A stretch of 34,501 nt of DNA from positions 21,097 to 55,597 of the forward strand of contig JAAFJP010000037.1 of assembly GCA_013298125.1 (NCBI GenBank). The letters are read 5' to 3'. This stretch comes from Cytophagales bacterium (GTDB lineage: Bacteria > Bacteroidota > Bacteroidia > Cytophagales > Spirosomataceae). Shown here piece by piece: positions 1-34,380 of the stretch (position 1 is the stretch's first letter; each line of letters begins with the position of its first letter). The notes beneath the pieces were generated by a model. The model had not been told where the DNA came from and searched no databases. It was given only the letters and a program-made list of their open reading frames with translations. The translations under genes and the position numbers were made by a program.

Positions 1-3000
1 GAGATGTAAGTTACTGGGTAAGTCAGACAGTGACTACCAACAGTGTAGCTTGCGAAGGACCAAGAGCAGAAATTGTAGTAACGGTAAATCCAGCGACAAT
101 AGCTCCAACGGTTACAAGTCCAGTAGTCTATTGCCAAAACGCAACAGCAACGGCATTAACAGCCACTGGTACAGCCTTGAAATGGTACACAGCTGCAAGT
201 GGAGGTACAGGGAACTCAACAGCTCCAACACCTGTGACTACGACAGCTGGCAATACAATTTATTGGGTAAGCCAAACTATCACAACCAACAGTGTAGCTT
301 GTGAAGGACCAAGAGAAGAAATTGTCGTAACGGTAAACCCAGCCGCCTCAACTTCGGTAGCAGGTCCTCCTCAAACAATTTGTCCAACAACGCCAGCAAC
401 ATTGGCGGGTAATACCCCAGCAGTAGGTACTGGTGTATGGACATTTGTTTCAACAACTGCGGCTTCAACGCCGACTGGATTTTTTACTAATCCAACCTCT
501 CCAACAGCTACTTATACGCCAACAGGTGGAGTAGGAGCATATACTTTGCGTTGGACTATCAGTACGCCAGCCAATTGTAATACCAATTCTTCGGATGTGG
601 TGATTACTTCTTTGGATATCACAAAGCCAGCCATTACAGCAAGTAGTTTACCAACAATTACTGTTAATGCTAATACTGGTCTTTGTTCGGCATCAATGGC
701 AACAGTTACTGCAAACGCTAATTATAAAACAGCAGCAGCAGCAAACTTAGCCAAAGCAACTTATGCCACAGATAATTGTGCAGTAAATTTAATTAGTAAT
801 GATTTTGCTTCTTTGACATTCCCATTGAACGTAGGAGGAACACACAAAATCACTTGGACAGTAACGGACTTTGGTGGAAATACCAGCCTTCCTTATGAGC
901 AGATGATTGTGGTAGTGGATGCTGAGAATCCAACGATTACAGCACCAGCGGATATAACAGCACAAAGCACAGATGCAGGTCAATGTTATGCAACAAATAT
1001 TAGTTTAGGTACACCCACAACAGCCGATAATTGTAGTGTAGCCTCAGTTGTTGCTAAATTGGGTGGAGCAAGTGGAACGGTTATAACACCAACTACTCAA
1101 TTTGCAAAAGGCTCTCCAATTGCTGTAACGTGGGTAGTAACTGATGGAGCGGGTTTAACTGCCACAGCAACTCAAACGGTAACAGTAGTAGATACTGAGA
1201 AGCCAAAATTCACTTTGGCGACTCTTGCAGGAATTAATGTTAATGCAGATGCAGGTGTTTGTACTTACGCAAGTAGTCAATTAACCCCTCCTGCAACAAC
1301 GGATAACTGTACAACAGGAACAGTAGCAGTAGCAAGTCCAGCAAGTTTAGTAGCAGGTGCAAATACCGTTACTTGGACAGTTACTGATGCAGCGAATAAC
1401 GTAGAAACTAAGACACAAGTTGTTACGGTTGTAGATGCAGAGAAACCAAAATTCACTTTGGCAACGCTCGCAGCAATTAATGTTAATGCAGATGCAAATA
1501 CTTGTACTTACGCAAGTAGTCAATTGACTCCTCCTGCAACAACTGATAACTGTACAACAGGAACAGTAGCAGTAGCAAGCCCAGCGAGTTTAGTAGCAGG
1601 TGCAAATACTGTTACTTGGACAGTTACCGATGCAGCGGGTAATTCAGAAACTAAGACACAAGTTGTCACGGTATTAGATACTCAGAAGCCTAAATTCACT
1701 TTGGCAACGCTTGCGGGAATTAATGTTAATGCAGATGCGGGCGTTTGTACATACGCAAGTAGCCAATTGACTCCTCCTGCAACAACTGATAACTGTACAT
1801 CGCCAGTAGTGGCAATTGCAAGTCCAGCAAGTTTAGTAGCAGGAACAAATACTGTTACTTGGACAGTGACAGATGCTGCAAATAACGTAGAAACTAAGAC
1901 ACAAGTTGTTACTGTATTAGATGCTGAAAAGCCTAAATTCACTTTGGCAACGCTTGCAGCAATTAATGTTAATGCAGATGCAAATACTTGTACTTATGCG
2001 AGTAGCCAATTAACGCCTCCTGCAACAACTGATAACTGTACACCATCGGTAGTAGCAGTGGCAAGTCCAGCAAGTTTAGTAGCAGGTGCAAATACTGTTA
2101 CTTGGACAGTTACGGATAATGCAGGTAATATTGAAACGAAAACGCAAGTTGTTACGGTAATAGATGCTGAGAAGCCTAAATTCACTTTGGCAACGCTTGC
2201 GGGAATTAATGTTAATGCAGATGCAGGTGTTTGTACTTACGCAAGTAACCAATTAACGCCTCCTGCAACAACTGATAACTGTACATCACCAGTAGTAGCA
2301 GTGGCAAGTCCAGCAAGTTTAGTAGCAGGTGCAAATACTGTTACTTGGACAGTTATTGATGCTGCGGGTAATTCAGAAACTAAGACACAAGTTGTTACAG
2401 TATTAGATGCTGAGAAACCAAAATTCACTTTGGCAACGCTTGCAGGAATTAGTGTTAATGCAGATGCGGGTGTTTGTACTTACGCAAGTAGTCAATTAAC
2501 GCCTCCTGCCACAACGGATAACTGTACATCGCCAACTTTGGCAGTGGCAAGTCCATCAAGTTTAGTAGCAGGTGCAAATACTGTTACTTGGACAGTTATT
2601 GATGCTGCGGGTAATACTGAAATGAAAACACAAGTTGTTACAGTGGTTGATAATCAAGCCCCAACATTCACTTTTGTACCTGCGGCTTTGACAGTAAATG
2701 CTAACAATGCAGGTTGTACAGCAACAATTGCATCATTAGGAACTCCAACGGCAACAGATAATTGTGGTACTGCAAATATTACCAACAATGCCCCAAGTGC
2801 TTTCCCAATAGGAAATACAACCGTAACATGGACTGTAACTGACGGAGCTGGTTTAACCGCAACCGCAACACAAGTAGTAACCGTTACCAACCCAATCACT
2901 CTACCAACTCCAACCATCAACCAAGTAATTGGCTGTAATGGTGGATTTAATGGTAGCTTGACGGCAACCGCAACGGGTGGTGCAGGTTTCACTTACGCAT

Positions 3001-6000
3001 GGACAGGTCCAAATGCTTTCGCAAGTACAGGAGCAAATGTATCTGGTTTAGGTGCAGGGACATATAACGTTACGGCAACGGCAAGTACAGGTTGTACCGC
3101 TACGGCAAGTATTACCTTGACTCAGCCCGACCCATTGACTTTCTCACTTACAAAATCAAGCTATAACGGTGCAGATATTTCATGTAATACTTCAACGGAT
3201 GGAACTGTAACAGTAGATAGTCCATTAGGTACAGGACCAGTTTCAACTTATCAATACCAAATCAGACTATCTGGTGGTTCGTTCGGAGCATTCCAAACTA
3301 ATCCTATTTTCACAGGTTTGGGTGCAGGTACATACGAGGCAAGATTCAAAGACCAAAACGCTTGTAACTCTACTATTCAGAGTATTACATTAACAGCACC
3401 ACAGGTAATTGTATTAACATCTGGTGGTACGGATGTAACTTGTAATGGAGCAAATGATGGAAAAATCACCGCTTCGGCAACGGGTGGAACGGGAACTTAT
3501 ACTTTTGCTTATAAATTAACATCGGCAGCAAGCTATACACCAGCATCAAGTGGAACAATCACAGGATTAGCCCCAGGTGTATATACTGTAAGTGTTAAAG
3601 ATGTAAATAATTGTGAGAAAACAGCTTCGGTTACTATCATCGAACCAGCAGTTTTAACAGCTAATACTACGCAAGTAGATGTTAAATGTTTTGGATCTGC
3701 AACAGGTTCAGTTGATTTGACAGTAGCAGGTGGAAATTCTCCATATACTTACGCTTGGACAGGAGCAAATTCATTTACTTCATCAACGGAAGATATTACT
3801 TCATTGTCGGCAGGTGCTTATTCAGTAATGGTAACGGATGCAAAAAGTTGTACAGCTACTACTACGGTAATGGTTATGCAACCAACCGCAGCAATCGCCA
3901 TTACTTCGACGGCAACGAATGTAGGTTGTTTCGGGGCATCGACGGGAGCAGTTAATTTGGGTGTAACAGGCGGAACAACGCCTTATGCTTACGCTTGGAC
4001 TGGACCAGCTTCGTTCTCAGCAACAACAAAAGATATAACTTCTTTGTCTGCGGGTACTTATAACGTGACCGTAACGGATGCTAATAGTTGTGTGGCAACT
4101 GCCTCAGTAGCAGTAACGCAACCAACGGCAGGTCTTGCTCTTAACACAACAGCAACCAACGTAGCGTGTTTTGGAGGAACAACGGGAGCGATTGATTTAG
4201 CAGTAACGGGTGGTACAAGTCCAAATACTTATGCTTGGACTGGACCAGGGACGTTCTCAGCAGCGACAAAGGATATTAGCGGATTAGCTTTTGGTACATA
4301 TTCAGTAGTTGTAACTGATGCCAATAGTTGTAGTGCTGCCGTTACGGTAACATTAACCCAGCCAACCGCAGGAGTGACCGCAACGGCAACGGCAACGGCA
4401 GTAGCCTGTTTTGGAGATGCAACGGGTGCAGTAAACCTTACAGCAGCAGGTGGTACAAGTCCATACACGTATGCGTGGACAGGCACGGGAGGCTATGTTG
4501 CAACAACAAAGGACATCGCAACTTTGATTGCAGGAACGTATAATGTGACTGTAACCGATGCAAACGGTTGTACCGTATCAGCTTCGGCAACGGTTTCACA
4601 ACCAACCGCAGCACTTGCCTTTACAACTCCAACATCTACTAATGTATCATGTAATGGAGGAAGTAACGGTTCTGTAAATTTTGGAGCAACGGGCGGAACA
4701 TCGGCGTATGTATTTAGCTATAAATTAGCATCAGCTACGGCATTCACCACAGCAACTTCTCCAATCTCTGGATTAGTAGCAGGAACATATACCTTGAAAG
4801 TAGTAGATGCTAATAATTGCGAAGCTACAACAAACATTACTATTACTGAACCAACCGCCATTACTGTTACGCCAACGGGTGTACCATTGATTGGTTGTGC
4901 AGGTTCACAAACGGGAACAATTAATACTACGGCATCGGGTGGTACAGGTACATTGACTTACGCATGGTCAGGACCAAATGGTTTCACAAGTGCTTCGGCA
5001 AACTTAACTACTTTATTTGCAGGAACTTATAACTTAGTTGTAACGGATGCAAATAGTTGTACAGCAACAGCAAGTGTAACCTTAATCGACCCACCAGCAG
5101 TTCTTTTATCATCTGCAAAAACGGATGTTAAGTGTTTTGGAGGAAATGATGGAACGATAACAATTACGGTTACAAATGCAGGACCAACTGATAAATACAG
5201 ATTCAAAATAGACGGTGGAGCATGGGTACCAAGTTTAACAATCGCATCGCCATATACTTTCACAGGTTTGTCGGCAGGTTTACATTCAATTGATGTACAA
5301 AATGCTTCGGGTTGTGTTTTCTCAGGAAATAATCCACAGGACGAGTTAAAAGTAACTTTGATGCAACCAGTAGTTTTAGCAGCTAATGCTTCAAAGGTCG
5401 ATGTAACGTGTGTAGGTGGTAACAACGGAACTGCCACAGCAGCACCAACTGGCGGAACTTCGCCTTATACTTACGCATGGACGGGAGCGAATTCGTTTAC
5501 TTCAACTACGCAAAGTCTCAGTTCATTAACGGCAGGAACATACAACGTAACAGTAACAGATGCTAATAGTTGTGTAGCAACGGCTTCGGTAACAGTATCA
5601 GCAACGAATACGCTTCCAACGGTAACAGTTTTACCAACGACAGCAATCTTGACTTGTGCTAATCCAACGGCAAGCATCACAGCATCAGGAGCAGCTACGT
5701 ACTCATGGTCGGGACCAGCTTCATTTACAACTGCGACAGCAAATATCACAATAGCAGGTACATACATCGTTACAGGAACATCGTCAGCAGGTTGTACGGC
5801 AACAGCAAGTGTAGTAATTACAGAAGATAAACTTGCTCCAACCGTAACGGCATCATCGGCAATTGCTATCCTGACTTGTGCAACGCCAACTACAACCGTA
5901 ACGGCAGGTGGAGCAGATACGTACTCGTGGACAGGTGCAGGTGGATTTACATCTTCATTAGCCACAGCAACTATCACCGCAGGAGGTACTTACACAGTGA

Positions 6001-7439
6001 TTGGAACATCATCAGCCAATGGTTGTACAGCAATGGTAACCGTAGCAGTTACTGAAAACAAAGCAACGCCAACTATCATGGTAACGCCAACGTCGTCAGT
6101 ATTGACTTGTGCCTCACCAAGTACAAGCATAACCGCAAGTGGTGCAGATACGTATTCTTGGACAGGTACAGGCGGTTTCACAGCTTCAACTGCAACAGCA
6201 AGTATTACAGCAATGGGTACTTACACCGTTGTAGGAACATCGACCGCCAGCGGTTGTACAGCCTCTGCAAGCGTAGTGATTACGGAAGACAAAGCAACGC
6301 CAACGGTAACAGTTTTACCAACGACAGCCATCTTGACTTGTGCAAATCCAACGACAAGTGTTACAGCCTCGGGAGCTGATTCGTACTCATGGACAGGAAC
6401 AGGTGGTTTCACCGCCTCAACTGCCACAGCAAGTATTTCAGCAATGGGTACTTACACAGTCGTAGGAACATCATCTGTCAATGGATGTACAGCAATGGCA
6501 ACAGTAGCCATCACTGAAAATACAACCGCACCAACGGTATCTATCGCAAATACAGGTTTAGCATTATCTTGTACAACTCCAACTACAACACTTACAGCAA
6601 GTGGAGCGGATACTTATTCATGGACAAGTACAGGAGCATTTACTGCAACAACAGCAGCCGCAACTATCACGGCAGGAGGAACTTACACAGTAGTAGGAAC
6701 GTCATCGGCGAATGGTTGTACAGCAATGGCAACGGTAGTAGTTACAGAAACGAACGTAACGCCAACGGCTATTATCACAGGTTCGCTTACGGTATGTGCT
6801 AACTCGCCAATTAGCTTGGGGGGAACAGGTGGAGGAACTTACTTATGGTCTGGACCAAATAGTTTCTCGGCAACTACTATGGCAATCAATATCGCCAATG
6901 CAACTGCAACTCAGGCAGGTGTTTATATGCTAACTGTAACCAGCTCAACGGGTTGTACAGCTACGGCATCAGCCACTGTAACCGTAGAAACAGTAACTGT
7001 ACCAACTGTTACACCACCAGCTGCACCAATGCCATTGACGGGAAGTATTACCTTAGTATCAACTGGTTGTACTGGAACGGTTACATGGTATAGAGTTCCT
7101 GATAATGTAGCTCTTCCAATGCCAATAACACCGTCAATCAATACACAATATTATGCAAAATGTACATCAGCAAGTGGATGTACGAGTGCAGCATCCAATA
7201 TTGTTGATGTAGTAGTAGTTGATAGTCCTGTAACAAGTATTGTAACGGGCGATTGGGAAAGTGGGACAACATGGAACACGGGTACTGTACCAACAGACCT
7301 CAACCATGTAATCATAGCTCCAACGCACATAGTTACTATCAAAACAGCGACAGCAACGGCTAAGAAATTGGAACAAAAAACTAACTCAACCCTCAAATTT
7401 GATAATTCAACTTCAAAATTGACGGTGAAAGGTTTATAA
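1..7439 (+). CDS. Giant repeat-built cell-surface adhesin (SprB/HYR/Ig-like), 5' truncated
   Basis: The reading frame is open from the left edge (codons in phase with base 3), so the N-terminus lies outside the window; about 2,479 residues are visible. Order of domains: two CHU-type Ig-like repeats (to about base 350), a linking Ig-like segment, about nine HYR modules (about 615-2890), about eleven SprB-type repeats with the C(F/N)G..TG signature (about 2900-5605), five to six PKD/Ig-like repeats (5606-6990), one more Ig-like module, and a final 70 residues around a DWESGTTWNTG motif. The protein is rich in Thr, Ala, Ser and Val and almost free of Lys and Arg in the repeats, as expected of an exported stalk. 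SprB-type proteins of gliding Bacteroidota are type IX-secreted adhesins; that role is inferred here. I do not see a conserved type IX C-terminal sorting domain. A few of the final residues could instead belong to a truncated beta-helix module. Confidence 0.9.
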   Translation, partial: DVSYWVSQTVTTNSVACEGPRAEIVVTVNPATIAPTVTSPVVYCQNATATALTATGTALKWYTAASGGTGNSTAPTPVTTTAGNTIYWVSQTITTNSVACEGPREEIVVTVNPAASTSVAGPPQTICPTTPATLAGNTPAVGTGVWTFVSTTAASTPTGFFTNPTSPTATYTPTGGVGAYTLRWTISTPANCNTNSSDVVITSLDITKPAITASSLPTITVNANTGLCSASMATVTANANYKTAAAANLAKATYATDNCAVNLISNDFASLTFPLNVGGTHKITWTVTDFGGNTSLPYEQMIVVVDAENPTITAPADITAQSTDAGQCYATNISLGTPTTADNCSVASVVAKLGGASGTVITPTTQFAKGSPIAVTWVVTDGAGLTATATQTVTVVDTEKPKFTLATLAGINVNADAGVCTYASSQLTPPATTDNCTTGTVAVASPASLVAGANTVTWTVTDAANNVETKTQVVTVVDAEKPKFTLATLAAINVNADANTCTYASSQLTPPATTDNCTTGTVAVASPASLVAGANTVTWTVTDAAGNSETKTQVVTVLDTQKPKFTLATLAGINVNADAGVCTYASSQLTPPATTDNCTSPVVAIASPASLVAGTNTVTWTVTDAANNVETKTQVVTVLDAEKPKFTLATLAAINVNADANTCTYASSQLTPPATTDNCTPSVVAVASPASLVAGANTVTWTVTDNAGNIETKTQVVTVIDAEKPKFTLATLAGINVNADAGVCTYASNQLTPPATTDNCTSPVVAVASPASLVAGANTVTWTVIDAAGNSETKTQVVTVLDAEKPKFTLATLAGISVNADAGVCTYASSQLTPPATTDNCTSPTLAVASPSSLVAGANTVTWTVIDAAGNTEMKTQVVTVVDNQAPTFTFVPAALTVNANNAGCTATIASLGTPTATDNCGTANITNNAPSAFPIGNTTVTWTVTDGAGLTATATQVVTVTNPITLPTPTINQVIGCNGGFNGSLTATATGGAGFTYAWTGPNAFASTGANVSGLGAGTYNVTATASTGCTATASITLTQPDPLTFSLTKSSYNGADISCNTSTDGTVTVDSPLGTGPVSTYQYQIRLSGGSFGAFQTNPIFTGLGAGTYEARFKDQNACNSTIQSITLTAPQVIVLTSGGTDVTCNGANDGKITASATGGTGTYTFAYKLTSAASYTPASSGTITGLAPGVYTVSVKDVNNCEKTASVTIIEPAVLTANTTQVDVKCFGSATGSVDLTVAGGNSPYTYAWTGANSFTSSTEDITSLSAGAYSVMVTDAKSCTATTTVMVMQPTAAIAITSTATNVGCFGASTGAVNLGVTGGTTPYAYAWTGPASFSATTKDITSLSAGTYNVTVTDANSCVATASVAVTQPTAGLALNTTATNVACFGGTTGAIDLAVTGGTSPNTYAWTGPGTFSAATKDISGLAFGTYSVVVTDANSCSAAVTVTLTQPTAGVTATATATAVACFGDATGAVNLTAAGGTSPYTYAWTGTGGYVATTKDIATLIAGTYNVTVTDANGCTVSASATVSQPTAALAFTTPTSTNVSCNGGSNGSVNFGATGGTSAYVFSYKLASATAFTTATSPISGLVAGTYTLKVVDANNCEATTNITITEPTAITVTPTGVPLIGCAGSQTGTINTTASGGTGTLTYAWSGPNGFTSASANLTTLFAGTYNLVVTDANSCTATASVTLIDPPAVLLSSAKTDVKCFGGNDGTITITVTNAGPTDKYRFKIDGGAWVPSLTIASPYTFTGLSAGLHSIDVQNASGCVFSGNNPQDELKVTLMQPVVLAANASKVDVTCVGGNNGTATAAPTGGTSPYTYAWTGANSFTSTTQSLSSLTAGTYNVTVTDANSCVATASVTVSATNTLPTVTVLPTTAILTCANPTASITASGAATYSWSGPASFTTATANITIAGTYIVTGTSSAGCTATASVVITEDKLAPTVTASSAIAILTCATPTTTVTAGGADTYSWTGAGGFTSSLATATITAGGTYTVIGTSSANGCTAMVTVAVTENKATPTIMVTPTSSVLTCASPSTSITASGADTYSWTGTGGFTASTATASITAMGTYTVVGTSTASGCTASASVVITEDKATPTVTVLPTTAILTCANPTTSVTASGADSYSWTGTGGFTASTATASISAMGTYTVVGTSSVNGCTAMATVAITENTTAPTVSIANTGLALSCTTPTTTLTASGADTYSWTSTGAFTATTAAATITAGGTYTVVGTSSANGCTAMATVVVTETNVTPTAIITGSLTVCANSPISLGGTGGGTYLWSGPNSFSATTMAINIANATATQAGVYMLTVTSSTGCTATASATVTVETVTVPTVTPPAAPMPLTGSITLVSTGCTGTVTWYRVPDNVALPMPITPSINTQYYAKCTSASGCTSAASNIVDVVVVDSPVTSIVTGDWESGTTWNTGTVPTDLNHVIIAPTHIVTIKTATATAKKLEQKTNSTLKFDNSTSKLTVKGL
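1197..2654 (+). repeat. Six tandem 243-bp HYR repeat units
   Basis: Six consecutive 81-codon units start at about 1197, 1440, 1683, 1926, 2169 and 2412. Each opens with EKPKFTLATLA and contains TPPATTDNCT and NTVTWTV motifs typical of HYR (hyalin repeat) modules. The units are nearly identical in DNA as well as protein, unlike the diverged HYR modules just before (about 615-1190) and after (2655-2890). This indicates recent duplication or gene conversion within the gene. Confidence 0.93.
2900..5605 (+). repeat. Array of about eleven SprB-type repeats
   Basis: Each unit of about 75-80 residues carries a cysteine near its start (for example CFGSATGSV, CFGASTGAV, CNGGSNGS), then TGGTSPYTYAWTG, LSAGTYNVTVTDANSC and a closing TQP. 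This is the pattern of the SprB repeat family of gliding-motility adhesins. The copies are diverged in DNA. The unit containing CFGGNDGT (about 5100-5370) is longer and lacks the AWTG motif. Confidence 0.85.
5606..6990 (+). repeat. Array of PKD/Ig-like repeats
   Basis: Five similar units of about 73-77 residues plus a diverged sixth carry LTCA.PT..ITASGADTYSWTG...GTYTVVGTSS.NGCTA. Units begin near 5606, 5837, 6065, 6293 and 6524. They resemble the Ig-like or PKD-like modules common in Cytophagales adhesins. The exact family is uncertain. Confidence 0.75.
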
Positions 7440-33238: not shown

Positions 33239-33268
33239 TTGCAAAGCAAAAAAACTTCCGTACCTTTG
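33239..33268 (+). promoter_or_regulatory. Promoter of the initiator tRNA gene
   Basis: TTG (33239-33241), a 19-bp spacer, then TACCTTTG (33261-33268), a perfect Bacteroidota -33/-7 promoter. Transcription would start about 33273, some 20 nt before the tRNA. Confidence 0.8.
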
Positions 33269-33293: not shown

Positions 33294-33628
33294 CGCAGGA
33301 TGGAGCAGTAGGTAGCTCGTTGGGCTCAAATCATTGTTAATTGAGAATTTTAAAAATTACTTGTTTAAAATTCTTTCAATCAATTTGCAAGAGGGCTGCG
33401 TAGAAAGAAATTTTTACGTGATTATTTGTCAAATTCGGGGAACCCTTTAAGTATGGCAATCCCGAGCCAAGCCTTAGTAATAAGGAAGGTGTAGAGACTG
33501 AATGGCAAGGACCTTACCAAGTAATGTTGGAGGTAAAGAGACAGTCCAGACCACAAACCGTAAGGGTAGTGAAAACTATAGTGGTAAGCATAACCCAAAG
33601 GTCACAGGTTCGAGTCCTGTTCCTGCTA
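33294..33628 (+). tRNA. Initiator tRNA-fMet(CAU), split by an intron
   Basis: 5' exon 33294-33326 and 3' exon 33589-33628 join to a 73-nt tRNA without encoded CCA. Acceptor stem CGCAGGA/TCCTGCT with an unpaired 1-72 (C.U), D arm GAGC...GCTC, anticodon arm TTGGG-CTCATAA-CCCAA, variable AGGTC, T arm ACAGG-TTCGAGT-CCTGT, discriminator A. The 1-72 mismatch and the three consecutive G-C pairs of the anticodon stem are initiator hallmarks, so this is fMet and not elongator Met or Ile. The anticodon loop is interrupted by the group I intron. Confidence 0.93.
33327..33588 (+). ncRNA. Group I intron in the initiator tRNA anticodon loop
   Basis: The 262-nt insert has the conserved group I core in order: P element AATTCGGGGAACCC (33432-33445), Q element AATCCCGAGCCAAG (from 33458), R element GTAGAGACTG (33491-33500) and S element AAGAGACAGTCC (33536-33547). 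P4 can form CGGGG with UCCCG, P6a CCTTA-gtaa-TAAGG, P7 GACTG (33496-33500) with CAGTC (33542-33546), and a P9-type hairpin ACCAC/GTGGT (33550-33585). It ends in G33588, the required omega-G. The sequence is close to the small IC3-type introns of cyanobacterial tRNA-Leu. It has no open frame, so no homing nuclease. Splicing after U33 restores CTCATAA. Confidence 0.92.
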
Positions 33629-33637
33629 CGCAGAACA

Positions 33638-33674
33638 AAGCTAATTATCTAATTATCAGATAGTTAGCTTTTTT
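33638..33674 (+). terminator. Rho-independent terminator after the tRNA
   Basis: AAGCTAATTATCT pairs with AGATAGTTAGCTT (one internal mismatch pair) and is followed by TTTTG. It lies 10 nt after the tRNA and ends the tRNA precursor. Confidence 0.85.
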
Positions 33675-34235: not shown

Positions 34236-34380
34236 GCTGTAAGTTTTTAGGATTTAAAATAAAAAAGCCCTGTCTTAGAAGTCCTAACGTACTTACAGCA
34301 CGTTTACAGGGGTTTCCCCTCCTGTCTTCATAACAGGGCAATATCTTTGAATTTCGTAACATAATGTAAGTTTTTTAGGA
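34236..34380 (-). promoter_or_regulatory. Structured 5' leader of the 82-aa gene with competing stems
   Basis: On the minus strand the leader can form: GCCCTGT (34339-34333) with ACAGGGC (34273-34267) followed by TTTTTT, a terminator-like stem enclosing AGGGG/CCCCT and AACGT/ACGTT hairpins; an alternative CCTGT/ACAGG hairpin at its 5' side; and GCTGTAAGT...TTAGGA (34299-34282) with TCCTAA...ACTTACAGC (34252-34236), which would cover the bases just before the start codon. A further TCCTAA...ACTTACA copy at 34380-34365 could compete for the same partner. It may be an attenuator or riboswitch-like control region. Confidence 0.5.

Follow-up and report, generated by a model that had tools for sequence, protein, structure and literature searches.

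In the current study, we analysed a window of 34,501 nucleotides of DNA from a Cytophagales bacterium of the family Spirosomataceae and found near its end an initiator tRNA gene that is split by a group I intron. On our reading, to which we assign a probability of about 0.92, this is the widespread bacterial tRNA-fMet group I intron, which interrupts, within the anticodon loop, the one initiator tRNA gene detected in the genome; there it folds and splices to leave a normal fMet tRNA, and it was probably acquired horizontally in the recent past. Splicing, and its being autocatalytic, we infer from the structure. If this is true, no protein could be started in this bacterium without the splicing of one ribozyme, and congeners that share an identical 73-nt tRNA gene, some interrupted by the intron and some not, provide a natural comparison. 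The initial annotation had proposed a group I intron splitting an initiator tRNA in a Bacteroidota genome, and host phylum, 262-nt insert and anatomy all proved correct. It had also called for a covariance search, which placed the intron above the family cut-off, and for a count of initiator genes, which returned the split gene alone; its argument that a sole initiator gene would make initiation dependent on splicing carries over, in that no intact copy was found and dependence is to be expected.

All features of the gene lie on the forward strand. The exons (33294-33326, 33 nt, and 33589-33628, 40 nt) join to a 73-nt gene that ARAGORN calls as tRNA-Met(cat), and in the unspliced window the same program calls no tRNA at all. 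The first exon supplies tRNA nucleotides 1-33 and the second starts with the anticodon CAU (33589-33591). An uninterrupted gene identical to the joined exons in all 73 nt is present in five congeners (G041-G045). Read directly, the joined exons have GGG/CCC in the anticodon stem, a C1 x U72 mismatch and an A11-U24 pair, which we take to be the marks of an initiator tRNA. The 262-nt intron (33327-33588) lies between U33 and C34. Because CA stands at both of its ends, three junctions are possible on paper; U33|C34 was chosen since no other cut provides both a terminal G and a U.G pair in P1. The ambiguity is absent from those related loci (8 of 84) in which the intron starts with T. The 84 loci represent 81 distinct introns, with L189, L190 and L211 repeating the family genomes G201, G111 and G158. 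The T and G found at their junctions prove nothing alone, as both were built into the search.

Upstream of the gene lies a likely promoter of the Bacteroidota type (33239-33268), made up of TTG (33239-33241), a spacer of 19 nt and TACCTTTG (33261-33268), as judged directly against what we assume to be the Bacteroidota consensus. A scan for sigma-70-type promoters, whose model does not cover that consensus, did not pick up this stretch. The promoter block cgtacctttgcagtcc is retained in 9 of the 10 relatives listed, the exception being G120. Downstream, a terminator-like hairpin followed by a T run occupies 33637-33671 (one found, against a mean of 0.4 in shuffled sequence). The gene would be transcribed from this promoter of its own and, probably, to its own terminator. 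Elsewhere in the window, a c4-2 RNA (RF02944, 62 bits) was detected on the reverse strand at 34262-34342, about 0.6 kb downstream of the split tRNA, and positions 30-7439 encode a 2,469-residue protein with SprB repeats and with HYR and Ig-like CHU_C-associated domains.

The intron belongs to the group I introns: RF00028 matches 33357-33570 with 69.7 bits against a cut-off of 50 (E = 6.7e-16 in the window search and 2.7e-17 in the genome-wide search). No open reading frame of 80 or more codons lies within the 262 nt, so that the intron is without an endonuclease gene of the I-Ssp6803I kind. The unspliced gene folds better than shuffled sequence (z = -2.94, 1 of 100 shuffles as good), but covariation is the stronger evidence for the fold. 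For this we aligned the window's intron with 24 others of tRNA-fMet (in all, 21 from Bacteroidota and 4 from Rhodothermota), leaving out the long or endonuclease-bearing introns L140, L141, L157 and L185 and the three repeat loci, on a P1-P9 model written down from the window sequence. Over the 54 pairs of the model, 93.0% of 1,335 cells hold standard pairs, compared with 29.6 to 44.7% when partners are slid by 1 to 3 columns; this figure is favoured by the structure having been drawn from one of the aligned sequences. Better evidence than the cells paired is provided by the compensatory changes in P2, P3, P6a, P8, P9.0 and P9. Both sides have changed in 29 of the 54 pairs, and the covariation score was 0.359 against a shuffled mean of 0.171, with none of 500 shuffles as high. 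No excess was seen in additional pair types (61, against 59.0 in shuffles, 135 of 500 being as high). The score and the covariation, together with the identical gene that congeners carry uninterrupted, led us to reject a chance match.

At the 5' splice site, the exon side of P1 (GGCU, 33323-33326) pairs with the internal guide sequence (33394-33397). The U33.G pair at the splice site, C32-G and G31-C are present in all 25 rows of the alignment, and the outermost G.U pair is present in 15 and fails in 10. The P2 hairpin (33399-33406 with 33411-33418) has both-side changes in 8 of 8 pairs and 87.0% of cells paired. In the core, P3 through P8 with a P3/P7 pseudoknot, three helices vary with compensation across the relatives: P3, whose main part joins 33425-33428 to 33506-33509 (both-side changes in 3 of 6 pairs, 98.0% of cells paired); P6a (33472-33476 with 33481-33485; 5 of 5 pairs, 87.8%); and P8 (33511-33514 with 33531-33534; 2 of 4 pairs, the outermost failing in 8 of 25 rows). 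P4 (33434-33439 with 33461-33466, P5 lying within) is 100% paired and nearly invariant, and P7, the guanosine-site helix, which pairs 33496-33499 with 33543-33546 across P3, is invariant in 25 of 25 rows. P1, P4, P5 and P7 are therefore conserved but lie outside the reach of covariation. An inner extension of P8 is probably misdrawn or misaligned, given that its first pair fails in 22 of 25 rows. Toward the 3' end, P9.0 (33550-33554 with 33581-33585) encloses P9 (33566-33570 with 33575-33579, capped by a GAAA loop); their cells are 99.2% and 98.4% paired, with both-side changes in 3 of 5 and 4 of 5 pairs, respectively. The terminal G is 33588. Splicing would then proceed as follows: the intron would fold around a P4-P6 and P3-P9 core, U33 of the 5' exon would pair with the G of the guide sequence and be the site of a first cut with a guanosine cofactor, and a second cut after the last G (33588) would allow U33 to be joined to C34, yielding a normal fMet tRNA.

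The genome to which the window belongs is 95.5% complete and comes in 72 contigs, and at this completeness neither a tRNA family search, which returned 46 tRNA places, nor a pattern allowing up to two mismatches recovered an intact initiator tRNA; the exact initiator arm GGGCTCATAACCC is absent from the genome. Several candidates were set aside. The single place with a one-mismatch arm (L063) holds no tRNA, the CAU tRNAs called at the 46 places are one that reads as an elongator Met, another that reads as an Ile2 and a third, odd one whose variable arm is long, and C18:32884, a place without an ARAGORN call, was rejected as an initiator on reading by eye. The odd tRNA belongs to a same-strand cluster of 11 called tRNA genes (L074, C18:32400-34800) that looks phage-borne. 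Since the only initiator gene found is split, initiation should depend on splicing, as far as can be judged from assemblies. Fifteen genomes of the family have a tRNA-fMet intron, 14 with both halves of the gene and one (G168) with a 3' half at a contig edge. Searched by exact pattern only, none of the 15 has an intact arm within a tRNA: 13 have no match, and the matches in G189 and G201 lie where ARAGORN calls no tRNA and were read by eye as coding sequence. Exactly one intact arm was present in each of six controls without the intron. Intron-bearing genomes thus seem to be without a spare initiator gene. They can also seem to be without any initiator tRNA, because a standard tRNA finder misses the split gene.

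It could be argued that the split gene is a dead copy and that an intact initiator tRNA sits in the few percent of the genome that were left unassembled; the completeness of 95.5%, the 72 contigs and the fact that the window ends at a contig end all leave room for this. However, two congeners whose genomes are 99% complete (G039 and G040) likewise have one fMet 3' half each among the matches listed, intron-bearing in both, and no exact intact arm. Moreover, the exons show no decay, matching the uninterrupted gene of five congeners base for base, and the intron core is intact, so we regard a dead copy as very improbable. A different proposal accepts that the intron is removed but holds that removal needs a host protein or is regulated, such that it ties initiation to GTP, Mg2+ or growth rate. 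With a single gene and a guanosine cofactor, such coupling would be possible in principle, but no sign of a sensor was noticed on a non-systematic look and congeners manage without the intron; we consider dependence or regulation of this kind highly unlikely.

The question of when the intron arrived is less one-sided. By neighbouring DNA, the window is nearest to G043 and G042, with 87.8% identity over 1,082 bp and 89.8% over 605 bp, respectively, of upstream flank; downstream, only G043 also matches well, at 85 to 88%. Both carry the uninterrupted gene, identical in all 73 nt. The nearest intron, by contrast, is that of G121, a member of another genus (98.5% identity), followed by those of the congeners G039 (95.4%) and G040 (88.6%). 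An intron of long standing in the genus or family, since lost from G041-G045 and with no recent transfer, would fit the patchy presence within the genus (3 of 8 genomes with the fMet intron and 5 of 8 with an intact gene, among the matches listed), which is explained by repeated loss as well as by gain, and a single clade of fMet introns within the family is not rejected by an AU test (p = 0.09). Nevertheless, the DNA of an ABC gene places G043 (89.5%), G042 (89.5%), G041 (88.5%) and G039 (85.8%) nearer to the window than G121 (81.4%), and a TPR protein places G043 (83%), G039 (72%) and G040 (63%) nearer than G121 (53%). The two genes differ over G040, which the ABC gene (78.3%) puts slightly farther off than G121 and the TPR protein puts nearer. 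In addition, the variable P1 region differs between the window and G121 at 2 of 62 bases, against an identity of 57% at third codon positions of the ABC gene, and the two leader bases that separate the window from its seven congeners are both shared by G121, and one of them also by G098, which belongs to a third genus. An old intron without transfer accordingly appears unlikely to us, if considerably less so than a dead copy. The window's intron was probably gained recently by horizontal transfer, to judge from the two genes and the two leader bases, and the transfer perhaps included a short flanking tract, a reading on thin support: the flanks of G121 match the window over only about 84 bp upstream and 49 bp downstream, a match so short that a misplaced contig is an unlikely source of the likeness. 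One tentative extension, to which we give slightly less than even odds, is that introns which lack an endonuclease and sit in the sole initiator tRNA pass from genus to genus within the family by short-tract conversion of leader, exon and intron, which would place the whole of a lineage's initiation under a newly acquired ribozyme.

A tree of 64 fMet and 14 Leu introns, unrooted and with bootstrap values that had not settled, places the window's intron among the 53 fMet introns of a starred set (99/96) from which Leu introns are absent. Under the same reservation on the bootstrap, the introns of the window, G121, G039, G040 and G120 group with an Anaerolineales intron (99/83) and then with one from Uhrbacteria (98/86), apart from those of Spirosoma and Fibrella. 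Left off the tree were L150, the three repeats, 16 fMet introns of at least 380 nt, one long Leu row and the 7 of 22 Leu matches that were missed by the 5' pattern. On the other side of the tree, the 14 Leu introns form one clade (100/99) and are joined there by 11 fMet introns from Saprospiraceae and Omnitrophota; the fMet introns therefore do not make up a single group. The starred branches suggest that the fMet intron may have entered the family twice, which the AU result given above does not establish.

Within the family, RF00028 matches occur in 43 of 222 sampled genomes, and the 54 matches, assigned to their tRNA by purpose-written 3' exon patterns, fall into four different tRNA genes: tRNA-Leu(UAA) (22), fMet (14), Ile2(CAU) (12) and Arg(UCU) (5), with one weak match unclassified. 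A wider scan of named genomes, which looked for a G directly preceding the fMet 3' half, yielded at least 115 stretches, of which 80 were listed. At least 70 loci, that is, 70 of the 80 listed, have both fMet halves around an insert at the same site; they span 17 phyla, a number that describes the sample, with phylum labels taken from record titles. Among the matches listed, Cyanobacteriota account for 16 loci, Bacteroidota for 14, Chloroflexota for 9, Nitrospirota for 8, Omnitrophota for 6, Rhodothermota for 4 and 11 other phyla for 13. The 5' half was unrecognisable in the other 10 (L135, L142, L146, L154, L158, L172, L174, L186, L202 and L203), some of which are cut by contig ends; the two from Bifidobacterium (L142 and L203) are probably not introns. 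L150 and L209 were counted among the 70 despite their other 3' ends. Four loci from Acidobacteria (L150, L172, L174 and L186) share a different 3' end before the fMet 3' half and possibly represent a separate intron type. RF00028 scores exceeded the cut-off in 13 of 19 loci from Bacteroidota and Rhodothermota (not in L146, L149, L160, L168, L190 or L211) and in 15 of 18 other cellular loci (not in L139, L151 or L167). The initial annotation had treated such an intron as unfamiliar in Bacteroidota, and in light of these counts that novelty was overstated: group I introns in tRNA-fMet are already known, and their range is wider than it supposed. A literature search by title and abstract start, with supplements and most subscription journals outside its scope, found no Bacteroidota tRNA intron, and the review PMC3984707 contains no word beginning with "Bacteroid". 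Introns of tRNA-fMet, usually presented as a feature of cyanobacteria, are found at this one site across many phyla.

Introns at the tRNA-fMet site range from 193 to 695 nt in length, and 14 of the 15 that reach at least 500 nt (of 84 loci) contain an open frame of at least 149 codons. The single such frame that was searched, from L157 (Saprospiraceae), matches PDB 2ost (Putative endonuclease; E = 1.7e-57), which we take to be the structure of I-Ssp6803I. The PD-(D/E)XK endonuclease-bearing introns, such as L140 and L157 (both Saprospiraceae) and others from further phyla, share the site of the window's intron and differ from it in having the reading frame. Carriage by a virus was also considered and set aside, as none of the viral contigs has an exact fMet 3' half preceded by G. 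One viral contig (IMGVR_UViG_3300005936_001382, L320) does encode, at 1501-1998, a protein 54% identical to the L157 intron endonuclease; its gene is free-standing, with a tRNA on either side, and a tRNA whose GGGCTCATAACCC arm is intact lies just downstream of it.

Group I introns are also found in proteobacterial tRNA-Arg genes. Like the proteobacteria, the family studied here has them in tRNA-Ile2(CAU) (L081-L085, L088, L089, L091-L093, L096 and L099) and in tRNA-Arg, but both the tRNA and the junction differ from those of the window's intron; in some of the Ile2 introns, the sequence upstream of the core resembles an HNH-type endonuclease by eye. The tRNA-Leu(UAA) introns, the most numerous in the family, likewise occupy a different tRNA and position. 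The window's own genome has one of these as its second group I intron (L002, C67:162480-162694), located after U34 and scoring 47.1 bits, below the cut-off of 50. Passages of one report (PMC8450103) describe Ile2 introns of Acidovorax and Burkholderia and attribute missing fMet or Ile2 calls in 36 genomes to group I introns; for those genomes, the same passages name no groups beyond cyanobacteria, Acidovorax and Burkholderia. The closest known counterparts are the tRNA-fMet introns of cyanobacteria (Synechocystis PCC 6803 and Gloeobacter), which interrupt the same tRNA in the same anticodon loop, and the window's intron is of this kind. Among the matches listed, 16 cyanobacterial loci have the U33|C34 junction and a similar 3' end, and three of the four tested (L136, L138 and L143, but not L151) exceed the RF00028 cut-off. 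The Synechocystis copy, as described in passages of PMC1995217, is 655 nt long and encodes I-Ssp6803I, whereas that of the window is 262 nt long and has no endonuclease gene.
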